Assembly (NCBI GenBank): GCA_013334965.1
Contig: JAAXWO010000002.1
Span: 124,001 to 188,000 of the forward strand
Direction: 5' to 3'
Length of the DNA stretch: 64,000 nucleotides
Origin: Chlorobiaceae bacterium
Lineage (GTDB): Bacteria; Bacteroidota; Chlorobiia; Chlorobiales; Chlorobiaceae
Below, piece by piece: positions 14,672-40,286 of this stretch. Position 1 is the first letter of the stretch. Every line of letters begins with the position of its first letter. Made by a program: the position numbers and the translations under genes. The notes beneath the pieces were generated by a model that worked only from the letters and a program-made list of their open reading frames with translations, did not search any database and had not been told where the DNA came from.

Positions 14672-16360
14672 ATGCCCAAATCCCTGTTCGCCATAGCTGC
14701 CCTGCTGATCATGACGTTCCTTGCCGGATGCGGGCTGAAATCTTCCGAAAAGCTGAGATCAGACAATATCGTGGTCGCGGTGGCTGCGGATTTCGACCAC
14801 ATGAACCCCCTGCTCATCCAGCTCTCGCTTTCCCGTGAGCTCTGCACGCTGATCTACCCGTCGCTCGTCAAGCCGACCTTCGACGAAAAAAACGGCACGA
14901 TAACCTATCTGCCGGGCGCAGCCAAAAGCTGGGAGTTTTCCCCTGACGGCCGGACCGCGACGTTCCACCTGAACGACAGGGCCCTCTGGGAAGACGGCAA
15001 AAAAGTCACCTCAAGGGATTTCAGCTTCTCGTACCGGCTCTACGCCCATCCTGCCATCGCCAGCAGCCGCCAGGATTACCTGCATGACCTGCTCCTGAAA
15101 CCGGACGGCAAGGTCGATTTCGACAGGGCGGTTGAAACCCCTGACGATTCGACGCTTGTACTGCATTTCAAAAGGGCCATCGCACCAGGCATAATCCTCG
15201 ACCACTTCAACGACCTGATGCCGGTAGCCGAACATGTGTTCGCATCCATTCCGCCCGAGCTCATCCGGCCGAAATCAGCCGAGCTTCCCGTCGTCGGGGC
15301 AGGCCCCTTCAAGCTGAAAGAGTGGCATCGCCAGTCAAAGCTGGTTCTCGCATCAAGCCCAACCTCCGTATTGCCCCACCCCGCCGCGACAGGCAACGTC
15401 ACCTTCCTGGTGGTCCCGGAATACACGACGCGACTTGCCATGCTGAAGTCCGGCCAGATCGACGCCATGATTTCGGCAGGCGGAATCAACCCGAAAGATG
15501 CTTCGGAGATGGCCGTGAAAAACCCGACCATCTCGATCAAGCCGCTCGGGAACCGATACTTCGACAGTATAGTCTGGCTGAACATCGACGGCGAAAGCTG
15601 GAGAAAACAGAAAGTCGTCCGACCCAACCGCTTTTTCGGTGAAAAGCGGGTCCGGCAGGCCATGACCTACGCCATCGACCGTCAGGCGATCATCGACGGA
15701 TTCATGGGCCCTGAGCATGCCACGATCGTCAACACAACGCTCTCACCGGCCTACACCGCCATCACCGACAGATCGCTCCACGCTTACGGATACGATCCTG
15801 CGAAATCCCTGGCGATGCTCAGGGAGGCAGGATGGACGCCGGGACCCGATGGCATCCTCCAGAAAAACGGCACGAGGTTCTCCATCGAACTGGCCGCCCC
15901 GGTGGGCAACCCGAGACGAAACTACGCAGCCACGATCATCCAGCAGAACCTCAGGGATATCGGTATCGAATGCAAACTGAAATTCGACGAAGGGCTCATG
16001 TTCAACAAAAACCAGAACGAGTTCCGGTACGACGCCGCCTTGTCGGGTCTGGCTGCCGAAACGCTTCCCTTCCAGCTCGTGATCTGGGGCTCCGATTTCG
16101 ACAGAAAACCCTTCAACTCCTCCGCATTCCAGAACACCCGGCTCGACGACGTAGTCTCCAGGCTCACCGGGCCGTTGCCGAAAGATGAGGAGGCCGGTCT
16201 CTGGAAAACCTACCAGCAGATACTTCACGAAGAGCAGCCGCGAACCTTCCTCTACTATTACGATGAGCTGGAAGGATTCAGCCCCCGCCTGAAAAACGTC
16301 AGGCTGACCCTGCTGGCAACACTCGGAAACATGTACGACTGGACAATTGAAAAAAAATAG
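14672..16360 (+). CDS. Peptide/solute-binding lipoprotein of ABC transporter family 5
   Basis: A 562-residue extracytoplasmic binding protein (DppA/OppA/SBP_bac_5 family). The signal peptide ends at a lipobox FLAGCG (Cys about residue 20). Family blocks include LSRELCTLIYPSLVKP, AKSWEFSPDGRTATFHL, WEDGKKVTSRDFSFSYR, GAGPFKLKEW and KRVRQAMTYAIDRQAIIDGF. No permease or ATPase gene adjoins it, so it is an orphan that could serve peptide uptake, cell-wall recycling or another ligand. It follows bshB1 by 50 bases. Confidence 0.88.
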   Translation: MPKSLFAIAALLIMTFLAGCGLKSSEKLRSDNIVVAVAADFDHMNPLLIQLSLSRELCTLIYPSLVKPTFDEKNGTITYLPGAAKSWEFSPDGRTATFHLNDRALWEDGKKVTSRDFSFSYRLYAHPAIASSRQDYLHDLLLKPDGKVDFDRAVETPDDSTLVLHFKRAIAPGIILDHFNDLMPVAEHVFASIPPELIRPKSAELPVVGAGPFKLKEWHRQSKLVLASSPTSVLPHPAATGNVTFLVVPEYTTRLAMLKSGQIDAMISAGGINPKDASEMAVKNPTISIKPLGNRYFDSIVWLNIDGESWRKQKVVRPNRFFGEKRVRQAMTYAIDRQAIIDGFMGPEHATIVNTTLSPAYTAITDRSLHAYGYDPAKSLAMLREAGWTPGPDGILQKNGTRFSIELAAPVGNPRRNYAATIIQQNLRDIGIECKLKFDEGLMFNKNQNEFRYDAALSGLAAETLPFQLVIWGSDFDRKPFNSSAFQNTRLDDVVSRLTGPLPKDEEAGLWKTYQQILHEEQPRTFLYYYDELEGFSPRLKNVRLTLLATLGNMYDWTIEKK

Positions 16361-16400
16361 TGGACAGAGTTGATAGTTGATAGTTGAAAACGCCCTCTCC

Positions 16401-16526
16401 ATTATCCATTATCCATTATCCATTATCCATTATCCATTATCCATTATCCATTATCCATTATCCATTATCCATTATCCATTATCCATTATCCATTATCCAT
16501 TATCCATTATCCATTATCCATTATCC
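16401..16526. repeat. Heptanucleotide tandem repeat, 18 copies of ATTATCC
   Basis: Eighteen uninterrupted copies of ATTATCC occupy 126 bases. They are flanked on the left by AGTTGAT heptamers (about 16368-16387) and on the right by their complement TCAACTG/TCAACTA (about 16529-16546), so the tract is bracketed by an imperfect inverted repeat. It lies between the binding-protein gene and bchF. A reading frame through it would give a 7-residue periodic peptide, which I regard as an artefact of the 21-base period. Confidence 0.97.
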
Positions 16527-16633
16527 ACTGTCAACTGTCAACTATCCACTATTTCCCCTATTTTGCTATATTCCACCACGTTTTGGCGCCTGATTTCGGC
16601 ACCGTCATCATTCAATGAAGTTTTGTACTCATT

Positions 16634-17104
16634 ATGCCTCGCTACACACCTGAACAGCTTCAGAAACGCAATGCCTCGCCATGGACCAGGGTACAGGGAA
16701 TCCTGGCGCCGATCCAGTTCCTCATCTTCCTTGCCGGCCTTACGGTCACCTGGCTTTACACGAAAGGGACAATAACCGATTTCGCCTGGATCACCACGTT
16801 CGTCACGCTGAAAACCTTCATGCTCGTCCTGATCTTCGTCACCGGCGGGTTCTTCGAGCTTGAGGTGTTCGGCAAATTCGCTTTCGCGCACGAGTTCTTC
16901 TGGGAGGATTTCGGCAGCGCCATCGCCATGATCGTGCACATCTCCTACTTCATCCTGTTCTGGATGGGCCTTGAGCAGCACATCCTGATCCTGACGGCAT
17001 ACCTTGCCTACCTGAGCTACCTGATCAATGCGGCCCAGTTCGTCATCAGGCTGCTGCTCGAAAAACACAACGAAAGAAAGCTCAAAGCCGGACGTCAAGA
17101 ATAA
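16634..17104 (+). CDS. bchF: 3-vinyl bacteriochlorophyllide hydratase
   Basis: A 156-residue integral membrane protein with four hydrophobic helices. It begins MPRYTPEQLQKRNASPWTRV, the BchF family start, and contains VQGILAPIQFLIFLAG, FWEDFGSAIAMIVHISYF and LSYLINAAQFVIRLLLE. BchF hydrates the C-3 vinyl group, here used for bacteriochlorophyll a and c/d/e synthesis. A paralogue, BchV, exists in this lineage, and BchF is preferred because of the bchC-bchX context. It is the first gene of the bchFCX operon, 15 bases before bchC, and the heptamer tract lies about 110 bases upstream. Confidence 0.92.
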   Translation: MPRYTPEQLQKRNASPWTRVQGILAPIQFLIFLAGLTVTWLYTKGTITDFAWITTFVTLKTFMLVLIFVTGGFFELEVFGKFAFAHEFFWEDFGSAIAMIVHISYFILFWMGLEQHILILTAYLAYLSYLINAAQFVIRLLLEKHNERKLKAGRQE

Positions 17105-17119: not shown

Positions 17120-18136
17120 ATGGTAAAAAAATCCAAAGCCATCGTCTTCAGCGGGGTCAGGCAGATCGAGCTGAGGGAGGTGACCCTCAAACCGGTCTCT
17201 TCGACCGACGTCATGGTCGAGACCTGGTGGTCGTCGATCAGCACGGGAACCGAGAAGATGGCGCTGAACGGCCTCATCCCCTCTCCCCCGTTCATCTTTC
17301 CGTTTATTCCCGGTTATGAAACCGTGGGCAAGATCGTCCAGGCGGGGGATCATGTCAACCAGGAGCTCATCGGAAAATTCGCCTATGTGGCAGGCTCTTT
17401 CGGCTATGAGGACGTCAATGCAGCATTCGGCGGGGCATCGCAGTACATCGTCTGCCCGCTCGACAGCATCACGGTGCTTGACGGCCTCGACAATCCAAGG
17501 TGTGGCATCGCCCTGCCCCTCGGCGCAACGGCCCTCCATATCGTGGATCTTGCCGATGTGAAGGGAAAAAATGTGCTCGTGCTCGGCCAGGGCGCCGTAG
17601 GCATTCTCGCAGCAGAACTCTCAAAACACATGGGAGCAAACCTGGTCGCCGTCACCGAACCCCACCAGAAAAGGCTCGATATCTCAAGGGCCGACATCAG
17701 GGTCAACCCTGAAATCCAGGACGTATCGGCTGCGCTGGCGGGATATGAATTCGATGTGCTCATCGACAGCACCGGAATCATGAGCGCCATTGAGACTGGA
17801 CTCCGTTTCGTCAGATTCCACGGTAAGGTCATTTTCGGGGGATACTACCAGCGGATGAACATCGATTATTCGCAGGCTTTCGACAAGGAGCTGACCTTCA
17901 TCGCCGCAAGGCAGTGGGCCAAGGGAGACCTCCAGCGGGTAAGGGAACTGATTGCGGCCGACAAACTGCATGCCACCCAGATCTTCACCCACACCTGTAC
18001 GGTCGATGAGGACCTCATGGGAGCCTACACGCAGGCCTTCTCGGATCCGGACTGCCTGAAAATGATCATTCACTGGAAATCCGCCGACAGCCAGAACGAT
18101 GCCGACTGCTCCATAACCGGCAAAAAGGGGCACTGA
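17120..18136 (+). CDS. bchC: Bacteriochlorophyllide a dehydrogenase (3-hydroxyethyl oxidation)
   Basis: A 338-residue medium-chain dehydrogenase/reductase-like protein. It has WWSSISTGTEKMALNG and PFIPGYETVGKIVQAG in the catalytic half, and the NAD-binding VLVLGQGAVGILAAELSKHMG near residue 150. BchC oxidises the C-3 1-hydroxyethyl group to acetyl in bacteriochlorophyllide a formation, acting after BchF and the BchXYZ reductase. It sits between bchF (15 bases) and bchX (7 bases), so a single transcript is likely. Confidence 0.94.
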   Translation: MVKKSKAIVFSGVRQIELREVTLKPVSSTDVMVETWWSSISTGTEKMALNGLIPSPPFIFPFIPGYETVGKIVQAGDHVNQELIGKFAYVAGSFGYEDVNAAFGGASQYIVCPLDSITVLDGLDNPRCGIALPLGATALHIVDLADVKGKNVLVLGQGAVGILAAELSKHMGANLVAVTEPHQKRLDISRADIRVNPEIQDVSAALAGYEFDVLIDSTGIMSAIETGLRFVRFHGKVIFGGYYQRMNIDYSQAFDKELTFIAARQWAKGDLQRVRELIAADKLHATQIFTHTCTVDEDLMGAYTQAFSDPDCLKMIIHWKSADSQNDADCSITGKKGH

Positions 18137-18143
18137 GAACCTT

Positions 18144-19286
18144 ATGGCTTCCAGGACAATCGCCATCTACGGGAAGGGCGGGATAGGCAAAAGCTTCACG
18201 ACCACGAACCTCAGCGCCACCTTCGCGATGATGAACAAGCGGGTCCTGCAGCTCGGCTGCGACCCGAAGCACGATTCGACCACCTCCCTGTTCGGAGGCA
18301 TATCGCTCCCTACGGTAACCGAAGTGTTCGCTGAAAAGAACGCCAAAAACGAACAGGTCGCCATCAGCGACATCGTTTTCCGCCGCGACATCCCGGGCTT
18401 TCCGCAGCCGATTTACGGCATCGAGCTGGGCGGTCCGCAGGTCGGCCGAGGCTGCGGTGGCCGGGGCATCATCTCCGGATTCGATGTGCTTGAGAAGCTG
18501 GGAATCTTCAACTGGGACATCGACGTCATCCTGATGGATTTTCTCGGCGACGTGGTCTGCGGAGGCTTCGCCACGCCCCTTGCCCGCTCCCTGAGCGAAG
18601 AGGTGCTGCTGGTCACCAGCAACGACCGCCAATCGATCTTCACGGCCAACAACATATGCCAGGCCAACAACTATTTCAAGACGATCGGAGGACGTTCAAG
18701 GCTGCTCGGCCTGATCGTCAACCGCGACGACGGAAGCGGCATGGCGGAGAAGTATGCAAGGGCGGCTGGAATCAATGTCCTGATGAAAGTGCCATACAAT
18801 ATCGAGGCACGGAACATGGACGACAGTTTCGATTTTGCCGTCAGGCTGCCTGAGATCGGCAAACAGTTCGACAAGCTCGCCACGGACATCCTCAACAGCG
18901 CCATCACCCCCTGCGAAGCGAAGGGGCTGGAGTTCATCGATTTCGTAAGGCTGTTCGGTGACGTAAGCGAAGAGCTTCCAGCGGCAGCTTCTTCGGAAGA
19001 GCTTTTTTCAAGAAGCGCCGGAACCCCATCTGCCGGACCTGAAAGTACCTCGGGCGTCAATGGAGTCGGACCGGACACAGGTGAATTCCATGACAGTGAA
19101 CGGTTGCACCTGCTCAAATGCATCGACAGCTTGGCCGAAGCGGAGCGCGAGATCTATACCCTCCTGGAGATCGAAGGGAAATCGCCAGAACAGATCGCCG
19201 ACCTGAAAAATCTCGGACTGAAAGAGGTCAACGACCGCATCGCCGGCGCACGCAGGGCTTTGAGGACACTGTTCTTCGACCTCTGA
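18144..19286 (+). CDS. bchX: Chlorophyllide a reductase iron protein with an unusual C-terminal HTH-like tail
   Basis: A 380-residue NifH-like ATPase that passes electrons to BchYZ for reduction of chlorophyllide a ring B. The P-loop IYGKGGIGKSFTTTNLSA is at the N-terminus, followed by QLGCDPKHDSTTSLF and cluster cysteines in RGCGGRGI and DVVCGGFA. The conserved part ends near residue 275. A Ser/Ala/Gly/Pro linker follows to about residue 315. The last ~60 residues then contain AEREIYTLLEIEGKSPEQIA and NDRIAGARRALRTLF, closely resembling sigma-70 region 4 helix-turn-helix sequences. BchX proteins of purple bacteria are about 330-360 residues, to my knowledge without this domain. BchY and BchZ are not in the window. 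Confidence 0.94.
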   Translation: MASRTIAIYGKGGIGKSFTTTNLSATFAMMNKRVLQLGCDPKHDSTTSLFGGISLPTVTEVFAEKNAKNEQVAISDIVFRRDIPGFPQPIYGIELGGPQVGRGCGGRGIISGFDVLEKLGIFNWDIDVILMDFLGDVVCGGFATPLARSLSEEVLLVTSNDRQSIFTANNICQANNYFKTIGGRSRLLGLIVNRDDGSGMAEKYARAAGINVLMKVPYNIEARNMDDSFDFAVRLPEIGKQFDKLATDILNSAITPCEAKGLEFIDFVRLFGDVSEELPAAASSEELFSRSAGTPSAGPESTSGVNGVGPDTGEFHDSERLHLLKCIDSLAEAEREIYTLLEIEGKSPEQIADLKNLGLKEVNDRIAGARRALRTLFFDL

Positions 19287-38420: not shown

Positions 38421-40286
38421 TCACTTCGCAATCGTTAACAGATCCGCCTTGACACGTTCAAAAACACTGGCCCAATCACCGATTGATTTCTGCCGGTAAA
38501 GTTTAACGCTCGGATACCAGGGACTATCCGTCCTGTCAAGCAACCAGCGCCAGTCCGGAGAGAACGGCAACATCACCCATGTCGGCTTGCCCAGGGCGGC
38601 GCTTGCGTGAACGATGCTCGTATCGACACTGATCACGAGGTCCATCAACTCACACAAGGCGGCAATATCAGTAAAATCCTTGACCTCATCCCCGAAATAC
38701 CTGATCTCCTTATGTGTCATAAGCGTTGCCCGGTCTGTATCCCTGACATCTTTCTGCAGGCTCACATATTCAAATCCATTGGGAAGCATGGCGGCGAACG
38801 AAGAAAGCCTTACACTTCGATGAAGGTCATTATGATGTGTTGGCCGCCCACTCCATACGAGGCCGACTCTCGGCTTTGTCTTCGGACCCAGCTTCTCAGA
38901 CCATACCGCCACCTTTTCTGAGTCAGCCGACAGATATTCGGGAAAAGATGGAACGGTATCAAGGGTTGTGTTGAAGGCAAAGGCAAGGCTTGTAATCGGG
39001 CAATGGCAATCAAAGGCAGGCAGAGTCGCACCTTTCACCACAAACTCAGCAACTCCCTCAAGCTGCCGTAACAAACCGATCAGAGGCTGCTCGATTTCCA
39101 GTATAACCCTCGCGCCAAGTTCAGCCACGAATTGCACGTAACGGCAGAACTGGATCGTATCGCCAAAGCTTTGCTCACTGTGCAACAGGATGGTTTTGCC
39201 ATTAATGTAAAAGTTGCCGAGCCATAACTGCTGAATAAAGCTGCGTTTCGAAAACTGGTTTTCTTCTGTCTTGCAACGCCACTCATACAACTCCCAGCCT
39301 TTCTCATAGTCGCCGCCCAAAAGCAATGCAATCGATTTATTCACATAGGCAGGTACGTAATTGGGTTTAAGCGCTATGGCGTGGTCGTAACTGGCCACAG
39401 CCGCTTCCAGCTTATTGAGTCCCTGAAGCGCAACCCCCTTGTTGGACCAGGCTTCGGCATAATCAGGCCTGATCCCTATTGCCTTGTCATAACTGTTTAT
39501 CGCCGCCTCCAGCCGTTTAAGCTCCTCCTGCGAGTTGCCCCGGTGGTACCATGCTTCCGCATAATCGGGTTTGAGCGCTATCGCCTGGTCATAGCTGGCA
39601 ATCGCTGAATCGTAGAGCTTGAGATCGCTCAACGCAAGCCCCCGATTGTTATACGCTTCTGCAAAACCGGATTTCAGCACTATCGCTTTTTCAAAACTGG
39701 CTACAGCCGCATCCAACTGTTCCAGCCGATGCAGCGCGACGCCCCGGTTTGACCACGCTTCGGCGTAATTAGGATTGATCACGATGGCCCTGTCATAACT
39801 GGCCACAGCCTCATCCAGCTGGTTCAGCGCCTGCAGTGCGGCACCCCTGTTCGACCACGCTTCGGCAAATTCAGGAACGATCGCTATCACCTTGTCATAA
39901 CTGGCTATCGCCGCCTCCATCCTGTTGCAGCCCTGAAGCGCAAGCCCCCGATTATACCATGCATCCGCAAAATCGGGTATGAGCGTTATTGCCTGGTCGT
40001 AACTGGCTATGGCCGCATCCAACTGCTTGAGTTCCTGCAACGCCGCTCCCCGGCTGGAATAATAGGCTGCATTGTGCGGATAGAGTTCGATGGCTTGATT
40101 GATCAGTTCAATCGCACGTTGGTATTTTTGCGTCTGTAACGCTATAACACCCATAAGATGAAGTGCGTCGAAATGTTTCGGCTGAAGGACAAGTATCTCC
40201 GCATAGAGTTGCCCTGCCTGCTCAAGTTGTCCCCTGCGATGGAGCGCAAGTGCCTGCTCTAATATTTCCTGGGTTCTTTCTGTCAA
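38421..40286 (-). CDS. TPR-repeat protein with C-terminal glycosyltransferase-like domain
   Basis: A 621-residue protein. Residues ~5-345 form about ten 34-residue tetratricopeptide units, most with the consensus AEAWSNRGVALQxLxxLxAA followed by ASYDxAIALKP. The underlying DNA is a recognisable 102-base tandem array. Residues ~355-620 form a GT-B-like domain resembling the heptosyltransferase/ADP-heptose family: GKTILLHSEQSFGDTIQFCR, RVGLVWSGRPTHHNDLHRSV and VISVDTSIVHASAALGKPTW. Such fusions are frequent in bacteria with O-GlcNAc-transferase-like roles, but the acceptor is unknown. It lies between the terminator and an AT-rich spacer. Confidence 0.88.
   Translation of the reverse strand: MTERTQEILEQALALHRRGQLEQAGQLYAEILVLQPKHFDALHLMGVIALQTQKYQRAIELINQAIELYPHNAAYYSSRGAALQELKQLDAAIASYDQAITLIPDFADAWYNRGLALQGCNRMEAAIASYDKVIAIVPEFAEAWSNRGAALQALNQLDEAVASYDRAIVINPNYAEAWSNRGVALHRLEQLDAAVASFEKAIVLKSGFAEAYNNRGLALSDLKLYDSAIASYDQAIALKPDYAEAWYHRGNSQEELKRLEAAINSYDKAIGIRPDYAEAWSNKGVALQGLNKLEAAVASYDHAIALKPNYVPAYVNKSIALLLGGDYEKGWELYEWRCKTEENQFSKRSFIQQLWLGNFYINGKTILLHSEQSFGDTIQFCRYVQFVAELGARVILEIEQPLIGLLRQLEGVAEFVVKGATLPAFDCHCPITSLAFAFNTTLDTVPSFPEYLSADSEKVAVWSEKLGPKTKPRVGLVWSGRPTHHNDLHRSVRLSSFAAMLPNGFEYVSLQKDVRDTDRATLMTHKEIRYFGDEVKDFTDIAALCELMDLVISVDTSIVHASAALGKPTWVMLPFSPDWRWLLDRTDSPWYPSVKLYRQKSIGDWASVFERVKADLLTIAK

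Follow-up and report, generated by a model that had tools for sequence, protein, structure and literature searches.

Upstream of the bchFCX genes of a Chlorobiaceae bacterium lies a long tandem array of a 7-bp unit, which raises the question of whether the array serves the pigment genes beside it or belongs to something found elsewhere as well. We analyzed it within a window of 64,000 nucleotides, starting from a sequence-only reading that had described eighteen copies of ATTATCC bracketed by inverted heptamers roughly 110 bases before bchF. The repeat itself was confirmed, as TRF returned 18.6 perfect copies in the TCCATTA rotation (16398-16527, forward strand, period 7, 100% match), the longest array in the window with a unit of less than 20 bp; by its length and by the folding of the region it stands well outside chance expectation. 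Its head-to-tail, 7-bp, intergenic arrangement is that of a heptanucleotide tandem repeat (STRR-like). The inverted brackets were also present on both sides, but the arms proved longer than described. The left arm (16355-16387), purine-rich on the forward strand, consists of AAATAGTGGA (16355-16364) followed by 2.9 copies of AGTTGAT (16368-16387 by TRF), and a 10-bp spacer (16388-16397) separates it from the array. The right arm (16524-16554, forward strand) reads TCCACTG TCAACTG TCAACTA TCCACTA TTT, with the last full unit extending to 16551 by reading of the sequence. AAATAGTGGA is complementary to TCCACTATTT (16545-16554), a pairing that the earlier description had lacked, and 16368-16384 is complementary to 16527-16543; together these allow the arms to form a 27-bp stem. 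The outer units belong to the AACT type, the inner run to the CATT type.

The gene upstream of the tract (14672-16360, forward strand) resembles an ABC-transporter substrate-binding protein on the basis of NCBIfam matches below the equivalog cut-offs, and its TAG stop (16358-16360) falls within the AAATAGTGGA portion of the left arm. Downstream and on the same strand, bchF (16634-17104, TIGR02020), bchC (17120-18136, TIGR01202), and bchX (18144-19286, TIGR02016) all scored above their family cut-offs. The tract was thus correctly placed upstream of bchF, but its last repeat unit stops 82 bp, rather than about 110, before the predicted ATG (16634). Several other assignments of the tract were set aside: the 20 promoter-like matches within it (1.4 expected) are a product of the repeated TGGATA/GATAAT letters, the sole RNA-family hit (MIR4376, E 0.68) was far under the gathering score and was taken as chance, and a 23S rRNA intervening sequence was rejected because the tract sits between the substrate-binding-protein gene and bchF. 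Elsewhere in the window, TRF also reported a 102-bp tandem repeat (2.5 copies, 75% match) at 39691-39941.

The search for the same heptamers elsewhere in the genome, which the sequence-only reading had proposed, was productive. Three tandem copies of TCCATTA gave 80 matches in a full count over the two strands of the 2.48-Mb genome, and the class pattern TCMAYTR x3 gave 137. On the basis of 100 of these 137 matches and the full count of the narrower pattern, which make the list a minimum, at least nine places beside the window carry the class: the end of contig C2, an S23 cassette on C4, C4:4584, C6:5366, C7:49455, the start of C8, C8:152225, the end of C12, and C20. According to mechanical ORF calls, a co-oriented gene precedes the purine-rich strand at C2, C4:4584, C6:5366, C7, the C8 start, and C12, and the strand begins at the stop codon of this gene or within it; the C8:152225 array lies by eye 5 bp after a TAG, and the C20 array is an exception to this placement. 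A search of the genome for closely spaced inverted dimers gave 0 matches; its pattern required the pyrimidine strand to come first, the reverse of the arrangement in the window. In two places, 9-bp repeats (GTCCATAAA, GTCCATTAC, and variants) were observed a few tens of bases past the heptamer arrays (L123 ~2077-2133 on C7 and L125 ~2293-2328 on C8). Four contig ends (C2 end, C4 start, C8 start, and C12 end) break within arrays of the window's class; the heptamer arrays fragment this assembly. The homogeneous run is 126 bp in the window and 56 bp at each of the C4 and C8 starts. Because the arrays broken by the C2 and C12 ends also stop at 126 bp, the eighteen copies are read as a lower bound that probably reflects a limit of the assembly, and the true number may be higher.

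One pair of these arrays brackets a gene (C4:79-441) whose product matched PF05635 (23S rRNA-intervening sequence protein, here S23) and TIGR02436 (four helix bundle protein); its sole solved relative at E ≤ 0.01 was 2rld (E 1.1e-35, 5 chains). The window array had a heptamer cosine of 0.88 to the S23 flank of its own genome (L129) and of 0.75-0.93 to seven S23 flanks of the same lineage (clade A), with a best value of 0.21 outside clade A, which places it in the same class. A second PF05635 gene over cut-off in this genome (L128:1489-1794; C7:119269-119583), with an in-frame TGA, is enclosed by very long arrays with other heptamer units, including GACGCGA/GATGCGA on its left. In the window a single class of 7-bp unit is inverted on both sides, as in the S23-linked elements, and by comparison with L129 the 10-bp spacer occupies the place where S23 cassettes hold their gene. 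There is no S23 gene between the window arms, and we therefore refer to the tract as a gene-less copy.

At E ≤ 0.001, 297 of the 394 genomes sampled from the phylum and 72 of the 98 in the class had a PF05635 match (278 and 55, respectively, over cut-off), and the sequences around 112 such loci were scored for periodicity. Period-7 segments with scores of at least 12 occurred within 350 bp in 37/109 upstream and 41/111 downstream flanks (flanks shorter than 60 bp were dropped), compared with 4/208 distant stretches of the same loci, whereas each other period from 4 to 13 was found in 0-5 flanks. Eight loci (L130, L131, and L222-L227) with weak PF05635 or Avd-like matches, two of them without a BLAST match, were omitted from these statistics and from the lineage test described below. 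The upstream and downstream flanks were reverse complements (segment ≥12) in 59/107 cases, compared with 15/107 in direct orientation and 8/104 for mismatched partners. For Chlorobiia, the array density was 1.61/kb in S23 flanks versus 0.031/kb over 541 kb of bchF loci, the bchF arrays being counted. The 7-bp signal is weaker outside Chlorobiia: a score of at least 9 on one side or more was reached by 52/63 Chlorobiia loci versus 21/49 loci of other Bacteroidota, and 28 of these 49 scored below 9 on both sides. A few S23 lineages carry 8-bp (L146 and L245) or 9-bp (L145) arrays, in each case on both sides.

Plasmid-borne relatives of S23 extended this pattern. Among 26 records, 14 were fetched, from hosts in Cyanobacteriota, Bacteroidota, Spirochaetota, Chloroflexota, and Bacillota; all 14 loci had a period-7 array with a score of at least 11 on one or more sides, and 13/14 scored at least 10 on both. 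Arrays occupied 24/26 S23-adjacent gaps versus 3/11 other gaps of the fetched plasmids, and inverted complementarity of at least 12 was found in 11/14 (direct, 5; mismatched, 2). Their heptamers include TAATTCG, ACTGGTC, and AATCCCC, the last being the complement of the Nostoc GGGGATT repeat described in the available part of PMC4692102. The earlier suggestion that similar heptamers occur in cyanobacteria thus held, both for the accessible text of PMC4679880 and PMC4692102 and for plasmid loci L249, L252, L253, and L258, as did the suggestion of copy-number variation, with CCCCAAT present four versus six times in an S23-flanking array of two Planktothrix strains. We conclude that inverted 7-bp arrays frequently bracket PF05635 genes.

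The identity of the heptamer tracks the S23 lineage and not the genome. Among the 95 of 126 cassettes that had an array profile, the mean-pair heptamer cosine between different genomes was 0.64 at ≥80% S23 identity (n = 47), 0.34 at 65-80% (n = 96), and ~0.01 below 55%; the Mantel correlation of heptamer similarity with S23 identity was 0.39, a value reached by 0/2000 permutations. All 12 same-genome pairs of S23 genes below 55% identity had a cosine of 0.05 or less. Thirteen of the 14 clade-A cassettes share flanks and hence one locus, whose neighbors we take to be hypC and hypD, and therefore simple descent accounts for part of the lineage tracking. The remaining clade-A gene (G024, L208) is truncated at a contig end, shares 65% identity with L184, and has flanks unlike those of the other 13.

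Inheritance at one locus does not explain the joint subtype of scattered arrays. Dimers of TCAACTR or TCCATTR were counted in whole Chlorobiaceae genomes minus the S23 cassette, and the majority subtype outside the cassette equaled that of the cassette in 12/12 informative clade-A genomes, seven of them CATT and five AACT (Fisher 0.0013, uncorrected for phylogeny and with several genomes incomplete). The other two of the 14 clade-A genomes (G295 and G048) had no subtype dimers and were uninformative, and G024, G063, and G102 are weak cases among the 12, the latter two having few units or dimers to count. In a tree of the downstream flanks, the sisters L129/L193 (support 0.998) and L187/L195 (0.844) each differed in subtype, a third part with poorer resolution mixed AACT with CATT members, and L208 formed a very long branch. 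The scattered arrays agree in subtype with the S23 cassette of their genome and switch together with it; therefore, sequence flows between them. Within the genus, the 11 genomes with a clade-A S23 gene exceeded the 10 without in type-A 21-mers (p = 0.012, again uncorrected for phylogeny and with several incomplete genomes).

Three further heptamer classes were searched for in the 98 class genomes, with a genome predicted to be positive when a fetched S23 flank (63 loci, 47 genomes) held two tandem units. TCAGTDR matched in 5/5 predicted genomes, in 4/5 outside the cassette, versus 11/93 others; CTCRGCM was found outside the cassette in 4/4 versus 18/94; and GGCAGTK was found outside the cassette in 3/3 versus 7/95, although one genome qualifies if three tandem flank units are demanded. 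The Fisher values for these classes likewise carry no phylogenetic correction, and several of the genomes are incomplete. No PF05635 match was found in G090 despite its 83 and 81 matches for two heptamer classes; either arrays can remain where no S23 gene is detectable, or the assembly lacks the gene. G370 had 168 and 280 matches of two classes, yet its fetched S23 gene (L209) is of another lineage with other flanks.

Comparison of filled and empty sites shows that S23 cassettes insert in cyanobacterial plasmids. In Nostoc sp. C052, the place of the 431-bp cassette of L252, whose left edge is at a stop codon, is taken by 197 bp of other sequence in plasmid D (L262) and in L263-L265; the L252 and L262 flanks match at 99.8% over 1451 bp on the right and 90.6% over 1421 bp on the left. 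The cassettes of L254 and L255 part cas2 from cas1, with the match to L266 resuming 62 bp within cas1, while in the empty sites of L266 and L267 the two genes are 2 bp apart or overlap. No mobilizing enzyme was identified. Across plasmids L254, L255, L256, and L258-L261, S23 genes were observed beside cas1/cas2, in a DISARM/BREX-like operon, between DUF1156 and Swt1-HEPN genes, and between hsdS and hsdR. The S23 genes found between cas genes or inside defense operons may be insertions mistaken for defense genes rather than parts of those systems. The available portion of PMC10910872 includes a figure of CRISPR-associated proteins that lists the 23S rRNA IVP, and insertions like those at cas1/cas2 might explain this listing.

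Taken together, we favor, with a probability of about two in three, the reading of the window tract as a gene-less member of a family of selfish repeat elements, in which members with a gene consist of an S23 (PF05635) gene between inverted arrays of a lineage-specific heptamer. In favor of this reading are the occurrence of the same class at the other places in this genome, one pair of arrays bracketing an S23 gene, the excess of arrays in PF05635 flanks, their presence at all 14 plasmid loci, the lineage tracking, the joint subtype change, the further heptamer classes, and the filled and empty sites. The tract itself would then derive from an S23 cassette. Insertion directly after an upstream stop codon would be expected to do little harm. 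The uniform inner TCCATTA units may have been amplified recently, while the outer units retain a TCAACTR-like sequence and the ability to pair as a stem, a pattern suggestive of renewal from the interior of the array. The heptamer would be recognized or copied by the S23 protein or by machinery that acts with it, and the arms may form an RNA stem in the cell. None of 80 bchF loci contained an S23 gene, which counts against a cassette origin of the window copy. The S23-linked reading is further weakened by the arrays of G090 and G370, the low scores of most PF05635 flanks outside Chlorobiia, the single locus common to 13 of 14 clade-A cassettes, the 8- and 9-bp arrays, the arrays in 3/11 plasmid gaps away from S23, and the failure to identify a mobilizing enzyme or, by eye, a target duplication.

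The site 5' of bchF in relatives bears on whether the tract is instead a cis-regulatory device, its copy number altering promoter spacing or its units binding a regulator. Its position favors this idea, with 82 bp to bchF and 10 bp from the last unit to a conserved motif, TTTTGCTATATTC (16561-16573, forward strand), a possible core promoter that was present, with set variants allowed, in 56/67 bchF loci. The arrays do vary at this site, as the sequence-only reading had anticipated: relatives hold the same heptamer, another, or none. Their gaps contain TCCACTA (L009), TCCATTA (L014, and short in L012), TCCATTG (L013), a TCAACTA array with an inverted left arm (L016), or AGTAACG and GAGTGAT arrays (L075), and examples without a clear array are L011, L018, L020, L026, and L033. 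L075 and G117 appear to be one assembly; G117 has 0 type-A 21-mers, and its S23 gene (L207) is flanked by GATGAGT and TATGAGT units, the former being a rotation of the GAGTGAT in the bchF gap. A switch specific to bchF was not borne out, given that the heptamer is scattered genome-wide, the motif lies downstream of every unit, and the motif persists in several relatives that have no array. A phase-variable bchF promoter is not favored for these reasons, tuning of bchF by the tract is unproven because the conserved motif is wholly downstream of it, and we regard the regulatory explanation as highly improbable. Scarcely better placed is the proposal that the arms form an RNA hairpin that ends or cuts the upstream transcript or insulates it from bchF. 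The predicted fold (MFE -33.5 kcal/mol, z -6.7) was matched by 0/200 shuffles, the upstream stop codon lies inside the left arm, and, according to the accessible text of PMC4990558, RNase III cuts in vitro the Coxiella S23 intervening sequence, which likewise has heptamers and terminal inverted repeats. Against this, no intrinsic terminator was found at the tract, the loop is at least 130 nt, several relatives lack the array, and the hairpin may be a by-product of the element.

An ordinary heptanucleotide microsatellite is the remaining alternative, in which slippage makes and homogenizes intergenic 7-bp arrays and S23 genes are passive neighbors, tolerated there or recombined in. Slippage typically leaves a homogeneous core and variable copy numbers, arrays without S23 exist (G090), and PMC4692102, in the part available, finds heptamers over-represented among bacterial repeats and cites a polymerase-slippage hypothesis. 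Slippage alone fails, however, on the inverted arrays on both sides of S23 genes, on the heptamers that differ between S23 lineages of one genome, and on the subtype change common to scattered arrays and the S23 cassette; we consider it unlikely, if less so than the two preceding explanations. The S23-linked reading has the further merit that no purpose-built bchF switch needs to be assumed. More tentatively, S23 proteins might be the basis of a widespread class of mobile elements acting by way of their own repeats, 7 bp and sometimes 8 or 9 bp long. The protein would recognize its heptamer, and in the same system cassettes would be moved and gene-less arrays seeded and homogenized in trans. 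The arrays known from cyanobacteria, Beggiatoaceae, Bacteroidota, and Chlorobi would then be footprints of these elements, and the 23S rRNA intervening sequences would be members that landed in rRNA; this is a wider claim that we hold as possible and somewhat doubtful. The S23 link supplies a candidate protein, a lineage-specific repeat, and filled and empty sites, with which the heptamer question becomes testable at the bench.

A parallel can be drawn with MITEs, which are small and gene-less, have inverted ends, and are related to a gene-carrying element. The tract family is alike in all four respects. It differs in that no transposase was seen, no target duplication was apparent by eye at the plasmid S23 junctions, and the ends consist of tandem heptamers that vary in length; the tract was not classed as a MITE. 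PF05635 resembles Avd of diversity-generating retroelements, as noted in the available part of PMC10053308. A literature search that covered few subscription papers and no preprints found no published link of heptamer arrays to S23 genes outside rRNA; the only paper found with both 'heptameric repeats' and 'four-helix bundle' was PMC4990558, such that the heptamers of the Coxiella S23 element are the sole printed S23-heptamer link encountered. In the text available, that 23S rRNA intervening sequence of Coxiella burnetii resembles the cassettes described here in having an S23 gene, stem-forming terminal inverted repeats, and tandem heptamers whose copy number varies between strains, but it resides within 23S rRNA and has few heptamers, whereas the present arrays are intergenic and long, with many scattered copies and a gene-less copy in the window. 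The published heptamers of cyanobacteria, Beggiatoaceae, Bacteroidetes, and Xanthomonas, including TAACTGA (PMC4679880) and GGGGATT and GGGAATC (PMC4692102), are, like those studied here, tandem 7-bp repeats of variable length that are mostly intergenic and occur in several phyla. The accessible portion of PMC4679880, which reports TAACTGA in Beggiatoaceae, cyanobacteria, and Bacteroidetes, found the mechanism not evident and suggested that a repeat-binding protein might be a mobile element. In the available text of these two reports the heptamers are linked to no gene, whereas here they are tied to S23 genes by flank position, lineage, and subtype.
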